Program-made: the position numbers and the translations under genes
The notes under the pieces: generated by a model
Told to the model about the DNA's origin: nothing
Databases searched by the model: none
The model's input: only the letters and a program-made list of their open reading frames with translations
Part shown: positions 14,505-21,714 of the stretch, in pieces
Position numbering within the stretch: position 1 is the stretch's first letter
Layout: every line of letters starts with the position of its first letter
DNA from: Acidimicrobiia bacterium
GTDB lineage: Bacteria > Actinomycetota > Acidimicrobiia > IMCC26256 > JAMXLJ01
Direction of reading: 5' to 3'
Assembly: GCA_024281095.1 (NCBI GenBank)
Contig: JAMXLJ010000127.1
Span: 1 to 64,000 of the forward strand
Length of the DNA: 64,000 bases

Positions 14505-15842
14505 TTACGAGCCGAGAGAGCCCAACTGGCCCTCGGTTGGCTCCGCTCAACAGAACCACGGCTCCGTGAGCCGTGGCCTCCCCTCGATCGAGCCGGCCTC
14601 GAGCAAGCCGGGCCGGGCGGGCAGCGCGAGCGCGTCGCGCACGCGTGTGTACGTCGTGGGGATGGGCTCTCCGGCCATGACGCTGTGCTCCACGATCCTC
14701 GCCAGCTCGCGCTGGAGCTCGTCCACGACGGGATCCGCGTTGCGCCACGTGTAGGACAGCGCGTCGGCGTCGTATGCCTCGATCGTCGCGGCAACGTCTG
14801 CTTCGTCGAGCAGCAACGACCCCGGTGGCAGCAACAGACGGATCGTGTACTGCACGGGGTCGACGTTTCCCACGAGGTCGTGGTCCGCGACGAACTCGAC
14901 GAGATCACGGACCTGGTCAACCGTCGTCCAGGGTGTGAACGGAAGGAACGACGGCCGGATCTCGATGCCGTGCTCCCGCAACAACGCCACCGAGCGCGCC
15001 GCGTCCGCTGTCGTGTGCCCCTTGTCGAGCCGCTGCAGAGTCATATCGTCGGTGCTCTCGAACGCCGACACGACGAACAGGCATCCGGCCGCCGCGAACT
15101 CCGACCACACCGTGTCGTGACGCAGGATGTGCTCGACCTTGACGGTGCAGTCGAAGGTCAGTTGCGGATGCCGCTCGTGCATCGCCTGTACGACGCGTCG
15201 CGAGTGGTGCACGCCGTTGAGGAAGTCGGGATCTCCGAACGTGATGTGCTCGGCGCCCATGTCGACGAGCTGATCGACGTCGCGGAGGACGTCGGGTTCC
15301 GTGACGATGCGGATGCGGCCGTCGTAGACGACCGGAACGGGGCAGTGGCGGCATCGGTGAGCGCAGCCGTGTGACGCCTCCACGTAACCGACCGCCCGCT
15401 CGTCACCGCCGAGCGCGAGATGCGCGTACCGCTGCAGCGCCGGCAGCGCGGCGCGTTCCGGGAGCGGCCGCGGGTTCGTGCCCCGGTCGAGCTGCACGGC
15501 CTCGCCCGCGTCGCCCGTCTCGACCCACGCCACGACCGCGTCGTCGTACTCGCCCGCCACGACCGCGTCGGCGAGATCGGCGCACGTGGCGGCGTAGAGG
15601 CCGTAGCAGCACGTGGGCCGGTCGATCCGGGGGAGCAGCGCGCGGACGAGCCGGGCCGCGGTGTGCATGGGAACGGAGAGGGCAACGCGGTCGACATCGG
15701 CCAGCACGCCCGGGTCCCAGCGCTCGACCGAGAGGTCGAGCAGGCGAACCTCATGGCCCCGCGCCGAGAGCGCGGCCGCGGGGCCGGCCGCGTGGATGGG
15801 CTGATGGCCCATCTCGTACGTCGACACCACGAGAACGCGCAT
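14505..15842 (-). CDS. CUAEP-tail radical SAM selenoprotein (in-frame UGA read as selenocysteine)
   Basis: Radical SAM enzyme with an N-terminal B12-binding-like Rossmann segment (MRVLVVSTYEMGHQPIHAAG) and a 4Fe-4S site at Cys160, Cys164 and Cys167 (HGCAHRCRHC). Conventional translation stops at UGA (14547-14549) right after Cys431. Read as selenocysteine, the frame continues Cys-Sec-Ala-Glu-Pro and 9 more residues to TAA, giving 445 residues with Sec432. This matches, from memory, the family named CUAEP/CCAEP-tail radical SAM (seleno)protein, whose tail has Sec or Cys at this position. A hairpin directly after the UGA is a plausible SECIS. It lies 11 bp after an ATP-grasp gene, probably one operon. 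Substrate unknown. Confidence 0.85.
14518..14543 (-). promoter_or_regulatory. SECIS-like hairpin after the UGA codon
   Basis: Read on the minus strand, GAGCCAAC pairs with GTTGGGCTC with one bulged G. The stem closes a 9-base loop (CGAGGGCCA) containing consecutive Gs. The stem starts four bases after the UGA and the loop Gs fall about 15-17 bases after it, close to the spacing of bacterial SECIS elements, which need a GG/GU-type apical loop for SelB. Pairing is seen directly; SelB recognition is inferred. Confidence 0.6.
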
Positions 15843-15853
15843 CGCCGCCCAGG

Positions 15854-17056
15854 TTATGGCCGGATCTCCACTTCCAACGCCGCGTGGGCGGCCCGCAGCG
15901 TCTGTTCCACGGCGAAAGGTGACTCGCCGTGGGCGAACACGAACCCGAGGTACCGGTCGCCGTCGGGCAACGGGACGACGGCGTGGCCTGCAGGGATCGT
16001 GATCTCGACGCCGTCGACACCCGGAAGTGTGCGTGCGTCGTCCTGGCCGCGCACCGCAACGAGTGTTCCGCGCCGCGGAATCGGCAGCATCATGACGCCC
16101 GACGAGGCGTGCGCCGGCTGCAACGATCCGAGCGCGCGCCCGGTGGCCTGCCGCAGGATCAGCTCCTCGAGCGACACACCGAGGCCGAAGACGAGCGAGC
16201 GCGCGCAGAGGCCGCCGATCGATCGGGCCGCGATCTCGAGCACGACGGCCTCGCGCTCCGACGGGACCCGCAGCTCCGCGTGCACGGGCCCGGTACGGAG
16301 GCCGAGCGCGGCGACCGCCGCCGACGTGGCCCGAACGACCTCGTGTTGTGACGCGGCCGGAAGCCGCGACGGCGTCACGAACAGTGTCTCCTCGAAGTAC
16401 GGGCCTTCGAGCGGGTCGGGTTTGTCGAAGATCGCGAGCACGTCGAGCGCGCCGTCGTGCACCAGGGCTTCCACTGCGACCTCGGCACCCGGCACGTACC
16501 GCTCGACGAGCAACGGCGGGCCGCCCTGGATGTCGAGCACACGCGTCGCCACCGCGGCCACCTCGTCCGGCGTGTCGACGCGGATGACCCCGCGACTCGC
16601 GGACAGGCCGACCGGTTTGATCACGGCCGGCGGGCCGAGCTCGGCCACCGCATCACGCGCCTCCTCCGGTGTGCGGGCGACGCGATATGCGGGCTGGGGG
16701 ACCTCCTCCGCCTCCAGGCGGGAGCGCAGCCGGCTCTTGTCGCGGGTGGCGGCGAGCGCGTCGACGGGGTTGTGGGGCAGCCCCAAGCGGGCCGCGAGCT
16801 CTCCCGCGACGACGACACCCTGCTCGTCGACGGCCACCACCGCGTCGAGCGGCAACCTGCGGTCGAGGTCGCCGACCGCGTCGGACGCGGCCTCGAGGTC
16901 GTCGAGCGGGACGAGGACCGTGTTCACCCCGTCCTCGCCCAGGACCTGCGGTTCCTCGGATCCCACCACCACGTCGACCCCGAGCCGCCGGGCCGCGGCG
17001 ATGAAATCGCGGGCGCGGTAGGTCGCCGTCGGGAGCAGGAGGAGGACGCGGGTCAT
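15854..17056 (-). CDS. ATP-grasp domain protein
   Basis: ATP-dependent carboxylate-amine/thiol ligase fold, 400 residues. The N-terminal pre-ATP-grasp Rossmann region (MTRVLLLLPTATYRARDF, DAVVAVDEQG) is followed by the ATP-binding core (PAVIKPVGLSASRGVIRV, PPLLVERYVPGAEVAVEALV) and the metal-binding HAELRV...VLEIAARSIGG segment. C-terminal part resembles ligases such as BL00235/CarB-like enzymes. It immediately precedes the selenoprotein radical SAM gene, suggesting a shared pathway, possibly peptide-like natural product chemistry. Its ATG is divergent from nfuA with only 18 bp between the start codons. Substrate unknown. Confidence 0.85.
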   Translation of the reverse strand: MTRVLLLLPTATYRARDFIAAARRLGVDVVVGSEEPQVLGEDGVNTVLVPLDDLEAASDAVGDLDRRLPLDAVVAVDEQGVVVAGELAARLGLPHNPVDALAATRDKSRLRSRLEAEEVPQPAYRVARTPEEARDAVAELGPPAVIKPVGLSASRGVIRVDTPDEVAAVATRVLDIQGGPPLLVERYVPGAEVAVEALVHDGALDVLAIFDKPDPLEGPYFEETLFVTPSRLPAASQHEVVRATSAAVAALGLRTGPVHAELRVPSEREAVVLEIAARSIGGLCARSLVFGLGVSLEELILRQATGRALGSLQPAHASSGVMMLPIPRRGTLVAVRGQDDARTLPGVDGVEITIPAGHAVVPLPDGDRYLGFVFAHGESPFAVEQTLRAAHAALEVEIRP

Positions 17057-17061
17057 GGGCG

Positions 17062-17067
17062 TATCAT
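17062..17067 (+). promoter_or_regulatory. Leaderless -10 of nfuA
   Basis: TATCAT followed by seven bases and then ATG. The hexamer itself contains an earlier in-frame ATG, which would fall before transcription starts, so this element decides the start of nfuA. Confidence 0.5.
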
Positions 17068-17074
17068 GGCCAGC

Positions 17075-17734
17075 ATGGCGCACAACGGCGCACCCCCCGA
17101 CGGACCCGACGGACCCGGCGGCCCGGCCCTGCTCACGATCAGCGACGAGGCGCGGGAGAAGATCCTGGAGGTCCGCGCCGCGGAGCCGGACCCGGACACG
17201 CTCGCGCTGTGGCTCGAAGTCAGCGGGGCGCAGGGCACGACGTACACGTACGACATGTATTTCCAGCGTGAGGACGAGGCCGGTCCCGACGACGGCATCG
17301 TGCGCCACGACGATCTCGCCGTGGTCGTTCCCTCGGCCAGCATCGACAAGATCCGCGGCGCCCGCCTCGACCTGCAGGGCGGCGGCATGGTGCTGAACAA
17401 CCCCAACCGCCCGCCCGCGAGCCCGCCGATTGGGAGCCGACCGCCGGCCGATCTGAGCGGCGAGGTGCCGCAGCGCGTGCTTCAAGTGCTCGACGAGCAG
17501 ATCAATCCCGCGATCGCCGCGCACGGCGGCCGGGCCGATCTCGTCGCGGTCGAGGAGAGCATCGCGTACCTGCGGCTCTCCGGTGGTTGCCAGGGGTGCG
17601 GTCTCGCCGCCGTCACGCTCAGCCAGGGCATCGAGGTCGCGATCCTCGACGCGGTGCCGGAGATCACGCGTGTGGTCGACGTCACCGATCACGCCAGCGG
17701 CGACAACCCCTACTTCGAGTCCGCCAAGAAGTAG
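17075..17734 (+). CDS. nfuA: NfuA-like Fe-S biogenesis protein
   Basis: Two-domain Fe-S carrier. Residues ~20-110 form an A-type (IscA/HesB-like) domain lacking the canonical three cysteines, as in E. coli NfuA. The C-terminal NifU domain (about 130-195) keeps the cluster-binding Cys pair (GGCQGCGLAAVTLSQGIE). A Pro-rich linker joins them. It receives and delivers 4Fe-4S clusters to apoproteins such as aconitase. An in-frame ATG nine bases earlier is rejected because it lies inside the -10. Divergent from the ATP-grasp gene and near the desulfurase, SufR and Mrp genes. Confidence 0.9.
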   Translation: MAHNGAPPDGPDGPGGPALLTISDEAREKILEVRAAEPDPDTLALWLEVSGAQGTTYTYDMYFQREDEAGPDDGIVRHDDLAVVVPSASIDKIRGARLDLQGGGMVLNNPNRPPASPPIGSRPPADLSGEVPQRVLQVLDEQINPAIAAHGGRADLVAVEESIAYLRLSGGCQGCGLAAVTLSQGIEVAILDAVPEITRVVDVTDHASGDNPYFESAKK

Positions 17735-17738
17735 CTCC

Positions 17739-18461
17739 TCAGGCGAAGCGGGCCGCGTCCTGCGCGGCGTACTGCGCGACCGCGGCATCCGCCGCGGCGT
17801 TGCGCTCGACCGCGTCGACGACCTCTGCCAACTTCGAGCCCGGGATCGCGCACGTCATCTGATCGCTCGGCATGCCGGTGCGGACGCGGCTCAGCATGCA
17901 GCCCACGCTCGCGGCCGCCTCACCGTGCTCCTTCGCGATCGCGACGATGTGGCACTGCGGCTTTCCTTCGATGCGCAGTCCCGGCATCGCGTCCGACAGG
18001 ACCATGAGTTGCTTCCCGTTGAGGCGCAGGAGCACGACGTCGGGGTCGACCGGTGTCTCGGCGAGCGGCCCGTACGTGACCGCGGCCGGGCGTTCGGTGA
18101 CCACCGGGATCTGCGGCACCACGTCCATGGTGACCCACCCCGATTCGAGCAGCGCGGCGACGTCGCCGTTCCCGGCCACCTCGTCGAGCGTCTTGAAGCC
18201 ATGGGTGAGGCTGCCGACGCTGCAATTGGCGTGGTCTTCCGCGACGGTGGTGAACGTGCGATCGGCGGCGTGGTTCCAGAAGACGCAGCCGGCGGGCACG
18301 CGACCGGTGCGCCCGTCCGGCATCGGGTCGGGCATCGGCTGGTCGAACGCGGGAACGCCTGCGGGCGGTTCCGCCGAGAACGTGATCGCCACCGGCGCCG
18401 TGGTGAGATGCAGCTGGGACTGCAGCGCGCTCGCGAGGGTCGTCCAGGAGTCGTCGGTCAT
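17739..18461 (-). CDS. DUF169 family protein
   Basis: Member of the uncharacterised DUF169 family (240 residues). The family's C-terminal cysteine pattern is present (ASVGCMLSRVRTGMPSDQMTC, about residues 188-208), with further Cys in the N-terminal half (AGCVFWNH, HANCSVG). The Cys-rich nature and its setting next to NfuA and a cysteine desulfurase suggest metal or Fe-S chemistry, but no function is established. It has its own leaderless -10 inside the end of the desulfurase gene, so it can be expressed independently. Confidence 0.8.
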   Translation of the reverse strand: MTDDSWTTLASALQSQLHLTTAPVAITFSAEPPAGVPAFDQPMPDPMPDGRTGRVPAGCVFWNHAADRTFTTVAEDHANCSVGSLTHGFKTLDEVAGNGDVAALLESGWVTMDVVPQIPVVTERPAAVTYGPLAETPVDPDVVLLRLNGKQLMVLSDAMPGLRIEGKPQCHIVAIAKEHGEAAASVGCMLSRVRTGMPSDQMTCAIPGSKLAEVVDAVERNAAADAAVAQYAAQDAARFA

Positions 18462-18467
18462 GGCCGC

Positions 18468-18473
18468 ACCCTA
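18468..18473 (-). promoter_or_regulatory. Leaderless -10 of the DUF169 gene
   Basis: Minus-strand TAGGGT lies six bases before the ATG and overlaps the last codon of the upstream desulfurase gene. It indicates an internal promoter and an uncoupled second gene. Confidence 0.42.
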
Positions 18474-19616
18474 CTGCGTTCGCAATCCACGCAGTCGCGT
18501 CACGACCGGGGCGAACGCACGCAGGAACGCGTCGACGTCGTCATCCGTCGTGTTCCAACCGACGCTGACCCGCAGCGAATGATCGGCGTCGACTCCCATC
18601 GCGTGCAGCACCGGCGACGGCTCGAACGTCTCGCTCGAACAGGCGGAGCCCGAGTGCACGGCGACACCGTGTTGATCGAGGGCGAGCAGGATCGGCTCCG
18701 CCTCGACGCCGGCGACTCCGAGACAGACGACGTGAGGCAGCCGGGCGACCGGGTCGCCGAACCGCCGGAGGCCGTCGACGGACGCGACGGCACCGGAGGC
18801 GAGGCGCTCGGTGCGGTCGTACGCCCCGGCGCGCTCGCGTTGCAGGCGCTCGCCGGTGGAGAGTTCTTGGGCGACTGCGCCGAACCCGACGGCGGCCGCG
18901 ACGTTCTCGATGCCACCGCGACGCGCTCGTTCCTGCGCGCCGCCGACGACGAACGGAGGGACGCGCAGCCCGCGCCGGATCAGCAGCGCGCCCACTCCCT
19001 TGGGGCCGCCGCACTTGTGTGCGGTCACCGAGCACAGATCCGCACCGAGGTCGTGGAAGTCGACCGGTACCTGGCCGGCTGCCGCGCACGCGTCGACATG
19101 CACGAGCACGCCGCGCTCCCGAGCCAGGCGGCACACAGCTGCCGCCGGTTGCAGCGTGCCGACTTCGTGGTTGGCGAGTTGCACGGTGACCAGCGCGGTG
19201 TGGCCGCCGACGGCGGCGGCGACCTCCTCCGCGTCGAAGCGCCCCGTGGCGTCGACACCGACGACCGTCGTGTCGGCGCCCGTACGCGCGCACGCGTCCA
19301 GCACCGCAGAGTGCTCGACCGCGGTCGTGACGACGTGCACCGGTGAACCGTCCCCCGTGTGACGCGCCAGCGCGCCCCACACGGCCGCGTTCACCGCTTC
19401 GGTGCCGCCGGAGGTGAGCACGACCTCTCGTGGCCTCGCGCCGAACAACGTTGCGACTCGTTCACGCGCTTCCTCGAGCGCGACGCGCGTGGTGCGGCCC
19501 TCGGCATGCAAGCGGGAAGGGTCGCCCTGATGCTCACGAAGGAACGGCACCATCGCCTCGAACGCGGCCGGCCGCAACGGGGACGTGGACGCGTGGTCCA
19601 GATACGTCCGCGTCAC
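18471..19616 (-). CDS. Cysteine desulfurase (NifS/IscS type)
   Basis: PLP enzyme that removes sulfur from L-cysteine for Fe-S clusters and thio-modifications. It has the cofactor His102 (EHS), Asp175 (VHVDAC) and the Schiff-base Lys201 (SVTAHKCGG). The catalytic persulfide Cys326 sits on the active-site loop (HSGSACSSETFEPSP), whose SSxxxxPSxVL form is group I-like. 381 residues. Lies just downstream of the SufR-like repressor on the same strand. In a selenoprotein-making cell it could also supply selenium, but that is speculation. Confidence 0.92.
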   Translation of the reverse strand: MTRTYLDHASTSPLRPAAFEAMVPFLREHQGDPSRLHAEGRTTRVALEEARERVATLFGARPREVVLTSGGTEAVNAAVWGALARHTGDGSPVHVVTTAVEHSAVLDACARTGADTTVVGVDATGRFDAEEVAAAVGGHTALVTVQLANHEVGTLQPAAAVCRLARERGVLVHVDACAAAGQVPVDFHDLGADLCSVTAHKCGGPKGVGALLIRRGLRVPPFVVGGAQERARRGGIENVAAAVGFGAVAQELSTGERLQRERAGAYDRTERLASGAVASVDGLRRFGDPVARLPHVVCLGVAGVEAEPILLALDQHGVAVHSGSACSSETFEPSPVLHAMGVDADHSLRVSVGWNTTDDDVDAFLRAFAPVVTRLRGLRTQ

Positions 19617-19634: not shown

Positions 19635-20474
19635 TCACACGCGGGTGACGCAGTGTTCCGCGCCTTCGGGTCGCGACTCCTCGAACCGAGGGTCGACCTC
19701 GCCCGACAGGCCGGCGAGCATCCCGCGGATCATGCCGCGATCCACCGCGCACACCACGTGCGGATACTGCTGGGCCGCTTCACCGAACGGACAACACTCC
19801 GACACGATCGCGAGCGAACGTCCGCGAGGCTCGGTGTGCGCAGCGAAGCCGTGCGCGGTCAGCGCCTCGGCGACTGCGACCATCGCCGAGCGCAGCGAGC
19901 GCTGTGCGCGGCCGGGGACCTCGGACGCCGGGCCCATTTGACGGGCGAGCGCGAGCCCGTACTCGTAGCCGACCTCGTCGGCCATCGCGGAGGCCTGCTC
20001 CGGGCCGAGGAGGTCGAGCGCGCGTGCGAGCAGTCGCGCGAGCAGATCGTCGTGACGGGGCGGGAAGGACAATGTCGCGTCGACGTCGCTCGTGCGGTAG
20101 CGCTTGGAAGGGCGCCCCGCCCCGCGCCCGGGCTCGCCCGCGGCGACGTCCGCGCTCGGCGCGGGCGCAACGGTGAGATAGCCACCTCCGGTGAGCTTTT
20201 CGAGGTGATGCCGGGCGACGTTGGGATGGAGCTCGAAGCGCTCTGCCACCTCGGTCGCGGTGACGCCGAAGGACGGGCCGCCGCCCGAATCGCGCACGAA
20301 GAGATAGATCTCGCGACGGGTCGGATCGCCGAACGCGCTCGTGACGGCCGCGACCGAGGCGGTGAATTCCTCGGCGGTCATCGGCCGCTGCTGCTCGGAG
20401 CGGGAGTGCTCCGACCAGGAATGCTCGGACCGGGCGTGCTCGGGGGGCTGCGGCTCGGGCCGCATCGCGTCCAC
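19635..20474 (-). CDS. SufR-like Fe-S-responsive transcriptional repressor
   Basis: ArsR/DeoR-like winged helix (FGDPTRREIYLFV, ATEVAERFELHPNVARHHLEK) with a C-terminal regulatory domain holding Cys227/228, Cys242 and Cys275 (ECCPFGEA, HVVCAVD, AEHCVT), the arrangement used by SufR to bind a 4Fe-4S cluster. SufR represses Fe-S assembly genes when clusters are sufficient. The GTG start is chosen because TAGAAT lies seven bases upstream. It adds a repetitive Ser-Glu-His-rich N-terminus encoded by a 15-bp tandem repeat; ATGs at 20465 and 20381 are alternatives, the latter removing the repeat. Cysteine desulfurase follows; Mrp is divergent. Confidence 0.82.
   Translation of the reverse strand: MDAMRPEPQPPEHARSEHSWSEHSRSEQQRPMTAEEFTASVAAVTSAFGDPTRREIYLFVRDSGGGPSFGVTATEVAERFELHPNVARHHLEKLTGGGYLTVAPAPSADVAAGEPGRGAGRPSKRYRTSDVDATLSFPPRHDDLLARLLARALDLLGPEQASAMADEVGYEYGLALARQMGPASEVPGRAQRSLRSAMVAVAEALTAHGFAAHTEPRGRSLAIVSECCPFGEAAQQYPHVVCAVDRGMIRGMLAGLSGEVDPRFEESRPEGAEHCVTRV
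20392..20445 (-). repeat. 15-bp tandem repeat in the SufR N-terminal extension
   Basis: About 3.6 copies of a 15-bp unit close to TGCTCGGACCGGGAG (plus-strand reading) begin at 20392, 20407, 20422 and 20437. In frame it encodes repeated Ser-Glu-His-containing pentapeptides. A length-variable site is possible, and it lies in a stretch that may or may not be translated. Confidence 0.7.
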
Positions 20475-20481
20475 GACCGGT

Positions 20482-20500
20482 ATTCTACCTATGTTCGTAG
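20482..20500 (-). promoter_or_regulatory. sufR leaderless -10 and overlapping CTAC-N8-GTAG inverted repeat
   Basis: Minus-strand TAGAAT (20482-20487) is seven bases from the GTG start. CTAC (20485-20488) and GTAG (20497-20500) form an inverted repeat over it in a short AT-richer island of the sufR-mrp intergenic region. It is a candidate autoregulatory operator that could also affect mrp. It does not match the CAAC-N6-GTTG site I recall for SufR in other groups. Confidence 0.42.
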
Positions 20501-20577
20501 TGGAAATCCCCTGAGCCGGCCGAGCCTCGGAAACCTCCGAGGGGCCGGTCCCCGTGGCCCGATCCGCAGGAGCGCAG

Positions 20578-21714
20578 ATGCCCGCCGACGCCGCCCTCCT
20601 CGCCGCGCTGCGCGAGGTCCAGGAGCCCGAGCTGCGGCGATCCATCGTCGAGCTCGGCATGGTGAAGGGCGCGGCGCTCGAGGGCGGGGTCGCGCTCGTC
20701 GCGCTCGCCCTGCCGCTCGCTCCGCCCGACGGCGGCGAGGGCCTGCGCCGGCAGGTCGCGGAGACGCTGCTGCGCATCGAGGGCGTCCAGCGGGTGGAGG
20801 TCGACGTGCGGCCGATGACCGACGCGGAGCTCGACTCGGTCGGGGGAGTGCTCAAGGGTGTCGACCCGCTGCGCGTGGTCGACGCCTCCGGAGCCGGGGG
20901 GCCGCCGCAGCCCCGGCGCAACCCGTTCACGGACTCGCGTACGCGGGTGCTCGCGATCTCTTCCGGCAAGGGTGGCGTGGGGAAGTCGTCGATCACGACG
21001 AACCTCGCGGTCGCCCTCGCGCAGCGCGGCCACGAGGTGGCGGCCCTCGACGCGGACGTGTGGGGGTTCTCGATGCCGCGGATGCTCGGCGTCGATCGGT
21101 CTCCCGGTCTCATCGGCGACGTGATCGTGCCGCCTGCGGCCCACGGCGTGCGCCTGATCTCCATGGGATTCTTCGCGCGCGAGGACCAGGCCGTCGTGTG
21201 GCGCGGCCCGATGCTGCACAAGGCGCTGGAACAGTTCCTCACTGACGTGCACTGGGCCGAGCCCGACTTCCTCCTCGTCGACATGCCGCCGGGCACGGGT
21301 GACATCTCGCTCTCGATGGCCCAGTTCCTGCCGGGTGCGGAGGTCGTCGTCGTGACCACGCCCCAACCTGCGGCCCAGAAGGTCGCGCAGCGTGCCGCGG
21401 CCATGGCCCGCAAGGTGAACCTCTCCGTGGTCGGCGTGATCGAGAACATGTCGTGGTTCCGCGGCGACGACGGCAAGGCCTATGAGATCTTCGGCTCCGG
21501 CGGTGGCGAGGAGCTCGCGGCCGACCTCGGCGTGCCGTTGCTCGGCCAGGTGCCGCTCGTACCCGCGCTGCGTGAAGGCGGCGACGAAGGCGAGCCCATC
21601 GTCGTCGCCCATCCGGACGACGAGGCCGCCGCGGCGTTCCGTTCGATCGCCGAGCAGCTCGACGTCTCGCTGGCCCCCCGCCGCCGCCATCATCCCGAGC
21701 TGCGCATCACCTGA
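20578..21714 (+). CDS. Mrp/NBP35-family P-loop Fe-S carrier ATPase
   Basis: N-terminal MIP18/DUF59 domain (about residues 1-85), then a Mrp/ApbC ATPase with deviant Walker A (SSGKGGVGKSS) and the DADVWGFSMPRML and VDMPPGTGD motifs. It binds and transfers Fe-S clusters. The C-terminal CxxC that bridges a cluster between ApbC monomers is absent: the region reads ENMSWFRGDDGKAYEIFGSG. AGGAG five bases before the ATG decides this start over an in-frame GTG 24 bases upstream. Divergent from sufR. Confidence 0.9.
   Translation: MPADAALLAALREVQEPELRRSIVELGMVKGAALEGGVALVALALPLAPPDGGEGLRRQVAETLLRIEGVQRVEVDVRPMTDAELDSVGGVLKGVDPLRVVDASGAGGPPQPRRNPFTDSRTRVLAISSGKGGVGKSSITTNLAVALAQRGHEVAALDADVWGFSMPRMLGVDRSPGLIGDVIVPPAAHGVRLISMGFFAREDQAVVWRGPMLHKALEQFLTDVHWAEPDFLLVDMPPGTGDISLSMAQFLPGAEVVVVTTPQPAAQKVAQRAAAMARKVNLSVVGVIENMSWFRGDDGKAYEIFGSGGGEELAADLGVPLLGQVPLVPALREGGDEGEPIVVAHPDDEAAAAFRSIAEQLDVSLAPRRRHHPELRIT

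Follow-up and report, generated by a model that had tools for sequence, protein, structure and literature searches.

Near the 3' end of a radical SAM gene in the window, the 64-kb stretch of DNA analysed here (64,000 nucleotides from an Acidimicrobiia bacterium), a cysteine codon is directly followed by an in-frame UGA. Does this UGA end the protein or does it encode selenocysteine (Sec), and what could such a residue serve for? The coordinates given for this gene in a sequence-only reading of the stretch, 14505-15842, are correct, and the gene, hereafter rSAM_CUAEP, lies on the minus strand, which that reading left unstated (Table 1). Conceptual translation with the UGA read as Sec returns the 445 residues announced, and the announced order Cys431-UGA-Ala-Glu-Pro is seen in it. 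The C-terminus consists of Cys431-Sec432 followed by AEPTEGQLGSLGS (Ala-Glu-Pro-Thr-Glu-Gly-Gln-Leu-Gly-Ser-Leu-Gly-Ser) and then by TAA, so that ten sense codons, and not nine as first counted, separate Ala-Glu-Pro from TAA. In an alignment of 44 sequences, W429, F430, C431, position 432, E434, P435, and Q439 are invariant, as are the three cysteines C160, C164, and C167 of the cluster motif.

Table 1. Features of the rSAM_CUAEP gene and of its neighbours in the window.
Feature	Position	Strand	Remarks
rSAM_CUAEP gene (predicted selenoprotein)	15842..14505	minus	ATG at 15842, TAA at 14507-14505
CxxxCxxC (C160, C164, C167), [4Fe-4S] cluster motif	15342..15365	minus	within the Radical_SAM match
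UGA codon for predicted Sec432	14549-14547	minus	directly after Cys431
Conserved tail W-F-C431-U432-A-E-P-T-E-G-Q...	14508..14558	minus	preceded by P-R-L-T-E-P; 44-sequence alignment
SECIS-like stem-loop	14516..14534	minus	7 bp (one G-U), loop AGUUG, 19 nt UGA-to-loop
ATP-grasp ligase, L-amino acid ligase type	15854..17065	minus	11 nt upstream of the rSAM_CUAEP gene
NifU-domain (Nfu-like) protein	17066..17734 (start codon approximate)	plus	Pfam NifU 72.1 bits
DUF169 protein	17739..18461	minus	Pfam DUF169 83.8 bits
Cysteine desulfurase (NifS/IscS type)	18471..19616	minus	NCBIfam NifS 347.8 bits, below cut-off

Pfam analysis assigns the protein to the radical SAM superfamily (PF04055, 56.1 bits for a threshold of 29.5). 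It is not assigned to the B12-dependent radical SAM enzymes: the B12-binding profile PF02310 returns 23.9 bits, under its threshold of 32.1, and the DxHxxG motif is absent from residues 1-110. The CUAEP/CCAEP-tail radical SAM (seleno)protein family named in the sequence-only reading does exist at NCBI as NF040546, with a curated cut-off of 500 bits, which is passed only with read-through: the complete protein scores 507.9 bits, whereas the protein truncated at the UGA scores 487.1 bits. The match covers profile positions 1-467 out of 468 in total and includes the same C-U-A-E-P tail (residues 431-435), although 507.9 bits is the lowest score among the members over the cut-off in the sampled genomes of the phylum. 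The name of the family states no function. That standard gene callers would lose this tail, as had been supposed, is directly seen in Thermomicrobium roseum, in which the RefSeq protein WP_012643191.1 (L151 5935-7440, plasmid NC_011961.1), though named CUAEP/CCAEP-tail, ends at the Cys preceding UGA-GCG-GAG-CCG. Read through, the gene yields C-U-A-E-P, and a possible hairpin lies downstream.

NF040546 scores over its cut-off in 20 of the 396 sampled genomes of the phylum, and a scan of GTDB contigs returned 80 named loci distributed over Actinomycetota, Chloroflexota, Nitrospirota, Acidobacteriota, Planctomycetota, Gemmatimonadota, Rokuibacteriota, Poribacteria, KSB1, and SAR324; members bearing UGA belong to at least eight phyla. 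Among 101 homologues, the codon at position 432 is UGA in 48 and Cys in 53, a few genomes being present in both collections and counted twice. The position is nearly always preceded by W-F/Y-C and followed by A-E-P (sometimes S-E-P). A-E-P is thus kept in both the UGA and the Cys forms, which answers the call of the sequence-only reading for homologues with Sec or Cys in the tail. When 97 proteins are placed on a tree computed with the tail left out, 15 changes between Sec and Cys are needed, of which at least 7 are forced by well-supported branches. The gene of the window itself is grouped, with support, with six others, all of which carry Cys. A sequencing error at codon 432 was considered and is ruled out, since the same UGA occurs in 48 homologues.

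Several members deserve mention. Two loci from one actinobacterial family (L037 and L038) carry the tail variant C-U-S-E-P, and one genome (G032) possesses two CUAEP radical SAM genes, C35 and C72, both with UGA. A distant relative (L044, 283 bits), placed on a very long branch, ends with S-E-A-W-F-C-C-A-A-P-P-R and may represent a separate subfamily. Lastly, a contig labelled Bifidobacterium breve (L088) bears a gene that hardly differs from one found in the order to which the window belongs, and is probably mis-binned.

The source genome (4.39 Mb, 177 contigs, 98% complete, 2.9% contamination) encodes the whole Sec machinery that had been proposed as a check. A tRNA-Sec is found with 69 bits (gathering score 47), in agreement with ARAGORN, together with SelA (475 bits), SelD (411 bits), and SelB (332 bits counting a neighbouring piece), the latter adjoining selA. 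A reassigned genetic code is ruled out as well: in the window, UGA serves as the stop of most genes that could be identified, as the standard code has it, and the genome has a tRNA-Sec. An FdhA-like gene of the same genome (L157 1132-3753) contains an in-frame UGA (NQARI-U-HSSTV) at the usual Sec site of FdhA and serves therefore as a positive control for the use of Sec in this organism; it scores under the cut-off of the formate dehydrogenase family and is predicted from its sequence to be a second selenoprotein. Across relatives, SelA occurs in 14 of the 15 genomes with the UGA form (in one only as a fragment) versus one of the six with the Cys form (p = 0.0017). SelB follows a similar pattern in these 15 and six genomes, and tRNA-Sec is found in 12 of 15 versus two of six. 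No selA, selB, or tRNA-Sec was found in the 78% complete UGA genome G393, the source of L037. The Cys-form genome G036 harbours a strong tRNA-Sec (78 bits) with no selA or selB match at the thresholds used, a pattern possibly explained by a recent loss of Sec use or by contamination.

Downstream of the UGA, the message can fold into a SECIS-like hairpin, the stem pairing nucleotides 16-22 with 28-34 counted from the UGA, and the usual loop being AGUU followed by C, G, or U. The published model of the bacterial SECIS comprises a loop of 3-9 nt with a G in its first two positions, a stem of 4-16 bp, and 16-37 nt from UGA to loop (PMC13188914), a geometry into which the window hairpin fits. The 64-nt fold at this site returns z = -2.3. 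At least six of the seven pairs form in 38 of the 48 UGA genes versus one of the 53 Cys genes (Fisher p ~2e-17, uncorrected for relatedness). The ten remaining UGA genes fall below six pairs in this fixed 7-bp frame; several of them exhibit a shifted stem by eye, and in one (L033) the consensus loop is absent. Covariation was analysed in 34 UGA sequences chosen for their in-register stem, a choice that favours the result and omits 13 of the 47 distinct UGA sequences (shifted or divergent stem): 93.7% of the cells are paired, changes on both sides amount to 27 cells versus 6.3 in shuffles, and five of the seven pairs show compensatory change. When the partner is slid by one column in this same set, pairing drops from 94% to 54-63%.

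If UGA432 were a true stop, the product would comprise 431 residues and the AEP tail would be an untranslated chance occurrence or a remnant. Such a reading accords with the position at which standard gene callers end the gene, as RefSeq does for the T. roseum member, and with UGA being a normal stop in the source genome. Against it, AEP is kept in homologues that carry Cys, the covarying hairpin is confined to UGA genes, and the Sec machinery tracks UGA; we therefore regard it as very improbable. The assignment of UGA432 to Sec, as the sequence-only reading had it, is supported by the machinery, the hairpin, the conservation of A-E-P, and the NF040546 score, and on these sequence data the rSAM_CUAEP gene almost certainly encodes a selenoprotein with Sec432. 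SelB and tRNA-Sec would decode UGA432 with the aid of the SECIS hairpin just downstream, and decoding would provide the protein with a C-terminal Cys431-Sec432 pair.

What this pair might do is approached through the relatives of the protein. Its second-best family is ArsL (NF040542), an enzyme of the biosynthesis of the arsenic-containing antibiotic arsinothricin, although with 250 bits for a cut-off of 450 and with an FCUAEP instead of an RCCLKC tail, it is not assigned to ArsL. ArsL/RCCLKC-tail proteins have a similar length and core, with 27-31% identity over ~380 residues for the relatives taken from plasmid records. Their C-C-L-K-C tail comes straight after the core, whereas in rSAM_CUAEP a long linker precedes F-C-U-A-E-P; across this long gap, the alignment places the terminal Cys-Cys of RCCLKC on Cys431-Sec432. 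ArsL has been proposed to transfer an aminocarboxypropyl (ACP) group and likely contains a single cluster (PMC8552651). In the RCCLKC clusters of Alicyclobacillus and Pantoea, an ATP-grasp gene is located near arsM. A blastp search of the ORFs of the named CUAEP loci and of the window region reports no relatives of arsM, arsQ, arsH, arsC, or arsN1, and a single weak ArsR match. An arsenic operon is ruled out here, no ars cluster surrounding the CUAEP genes. Therefore, if the chemistry resembles that of ArsL, the group is probably transferred to something other than arsenic bound for arsinothricin.

The AlphaFold2 model of the protein has a mean pLDDT of 92.7. The conserved block 421-430 (pLDDT 87) is flanked by a linker (72) and an end (77, 73) of lower confidence, a pattern that a tail docked on the protein body would fit in this model. 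Foldseek reports AprD4, MgmA, and OxsB as best PDB matches, the matched fold being a Rossmann front resembling a B12 domain followed by the radical SAM barrel. AprD4 (6fd2, TM 0.66-0.67) and MgmA (9ccb, TM 0.57) both share this Rossmann-type front and barrel, but they are only 17-18% identical to the protein and their chemistry is different; to our knowledge, neither has an equivalent Cys-Sec tail. The radical SAM families with Sec named in a 2026 review of prokaryotic selenoproteins are TIGR04167 (rSAM_SeCys) and TrsS (NF045646) (PMC13188914). Both are separate families, and neither is among the family matches of the rSAM_CUAEP protein.

The neighbouring genes of the window follow each other on the minus strand in the order NifS, DUF169, ATP-grasp, and rSAM, the NifU-like gene being inserted between DUF169 and ATP-grasp and divergent from the latter. 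The ATP-grasp protein scores over threshold with both ATP-grasp_4 (88.8 bits) and LAL_C2 (62.7 bits) of Pfam, and its best relative in the PDB is the L-amino acid ligase BL00235 (3vot, 118 bits). It could not be retained as a specific orthologue of the ATP-grasp protein of ArsL clusters: it is 26% identical to the Alicyclobacillus one, and members of the broad family match equally or better. Over the stretches examined around 75 rSAM loci, ATP-grasp genes are found near 44, on either side, and many rSAM genes are devoid of one. NifU-like relatives are present in 41 of these loci, most within ~1.3 kb, and DUF169 genes in 23; the cysteine desulfurase, found in only 6 loci, is an optional neighbour. 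The neighbours differ in order and side from one phylum to another, which speaks against simple inheritance of a shared gene order as the cause of the association. Several Cys and one His are conserved in the alignment of the DUF169 proteins, and the predicted DUF169 model (pLDDT 91) returned no PDB match at E <= 0.001. Upstream of NifS, an ORF on the minus strand (window 19635-21476) contains an ArsR/MarR-like helix-turn-helix (EEFTASVAAVTSAFGDPTRREIYLFVRD), and a relative of it occurs in other loci, e.g. L097.

The kinship of rSAM_CUAEP with ArsL makes an ArsL-like use of SAM the most likely, and we give an even chance to the account of a selenoprotein for which an ArsL-like reaction is the leading option. 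The enzyme would move the 3-amino-3-carboxypropyl group of SAM to an acceptor that the Cys-Sec tail holds or activates, giving a methionine-like amino acid that the adjacent ATP-grasp protein, of the L-amino acid ligase type, would join to another amino acid. The BL00235 ligase prefers methionine as the N-terminal residue. As a specific reaction, the two-step scheme of transfer and ligation, proposed by analogy, is tentative. It draws on ArsL being the second-best family, on the tail alignment, on the ATP-grasp genes of the RCCLKC clusters, and on the L-amino acid ligase relative; counted against it are the ~30% identity to ArsL-type proteins, the missed ArsL cut-off, the lack of an ars cluster, the long gap in the tail alignment, and the many rSAM genes without a nearby ATP-grasp gene. 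A wider version, which we hold to be rather unlikely as a whole, is that this ArsL-like selenocysteine enzyme places the aminocarboxypropyl group on a non-arsenic acceptor bound by Cys-Sec (a metal, metalloid, or chalcogen), and that the ligase, DUF169, and NifU-like proteins complete a small molecule or cofactor, through a pathway that would be widespread in environmental bacteria.

About as likely as the aminocarboxypropyl transfer, and thus equally tentative, is a redox use of the tail, in which Cys-Sec would form a couple (selenenylsulfide) that reduces the substrate or receives electrons instead of being a ligand that holds the substrate, while the radical step may follow the ordinary 5'-deoxyadenosyl route. 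A vicinal Cys-Sec near the C-terminus is a known redox motif, as in thioredoxin reductase, the closest solved fold, AprD4, is that of a radical SAM diol dehydratase, and putative bacilliredoxin-like genes lie near some relatives (L119, L129). However, sequence kinship is stronger with ArsL (250 bits) than with AprD4 (35 bits), and no recurrent reductase partner appears among the neighbours of the rSAM loci. It is improbable that the tail instead ligates a second metal centre or an auxiliary Fe-S cluster required by the reaction. Soft metals are well bound by vicinal thiol/selenol pairs, and the NifU-like protein of 41 of the 75 loci, with NifS in some, would suit such a centre; yet only two ligands are conserved in the tail, whereas a cluster usually has three or four, and a single cluster is likely in ArsL (PMC8552651).

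The statement of the sequence-only reading that the enzyme and its ATP-grasp partner have no known substrate holds for the searchable literature, in which no paper with the CUAEP/CCAEP wording was found. NF040546 was not found in the 2026 review (PMC13188914), and an earlier description in the selenoprotein literature is possible. Since NF040546 is already named in NCBIfam, the rSAM_CUAEP gene is a further member of a known family, to which the present analysis adds the covariation of the SECIS, the repeated switching between Sec and Cys, the correspondence with the ArsL tail, and the DUF169 and NifU-like partners. At the level of sequence, it confirms a family of predicted radical SAM selenoproteins that standard annotation cuts just before the Sec of the tail. 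Position 432 corresponds in the alignment to the vicinal cysteines of ArsL, so that the naturally occurring Sec and Cys forms offer a means of testing what the tail does, and the kinship with ArsL suggests a first hypothesis, open to experiment, on the purpose of the selenium. The repeated presence of the ligase, DUF169, and NifU-like partners points to a pathway, and no description of its product was found in the searchable literature.
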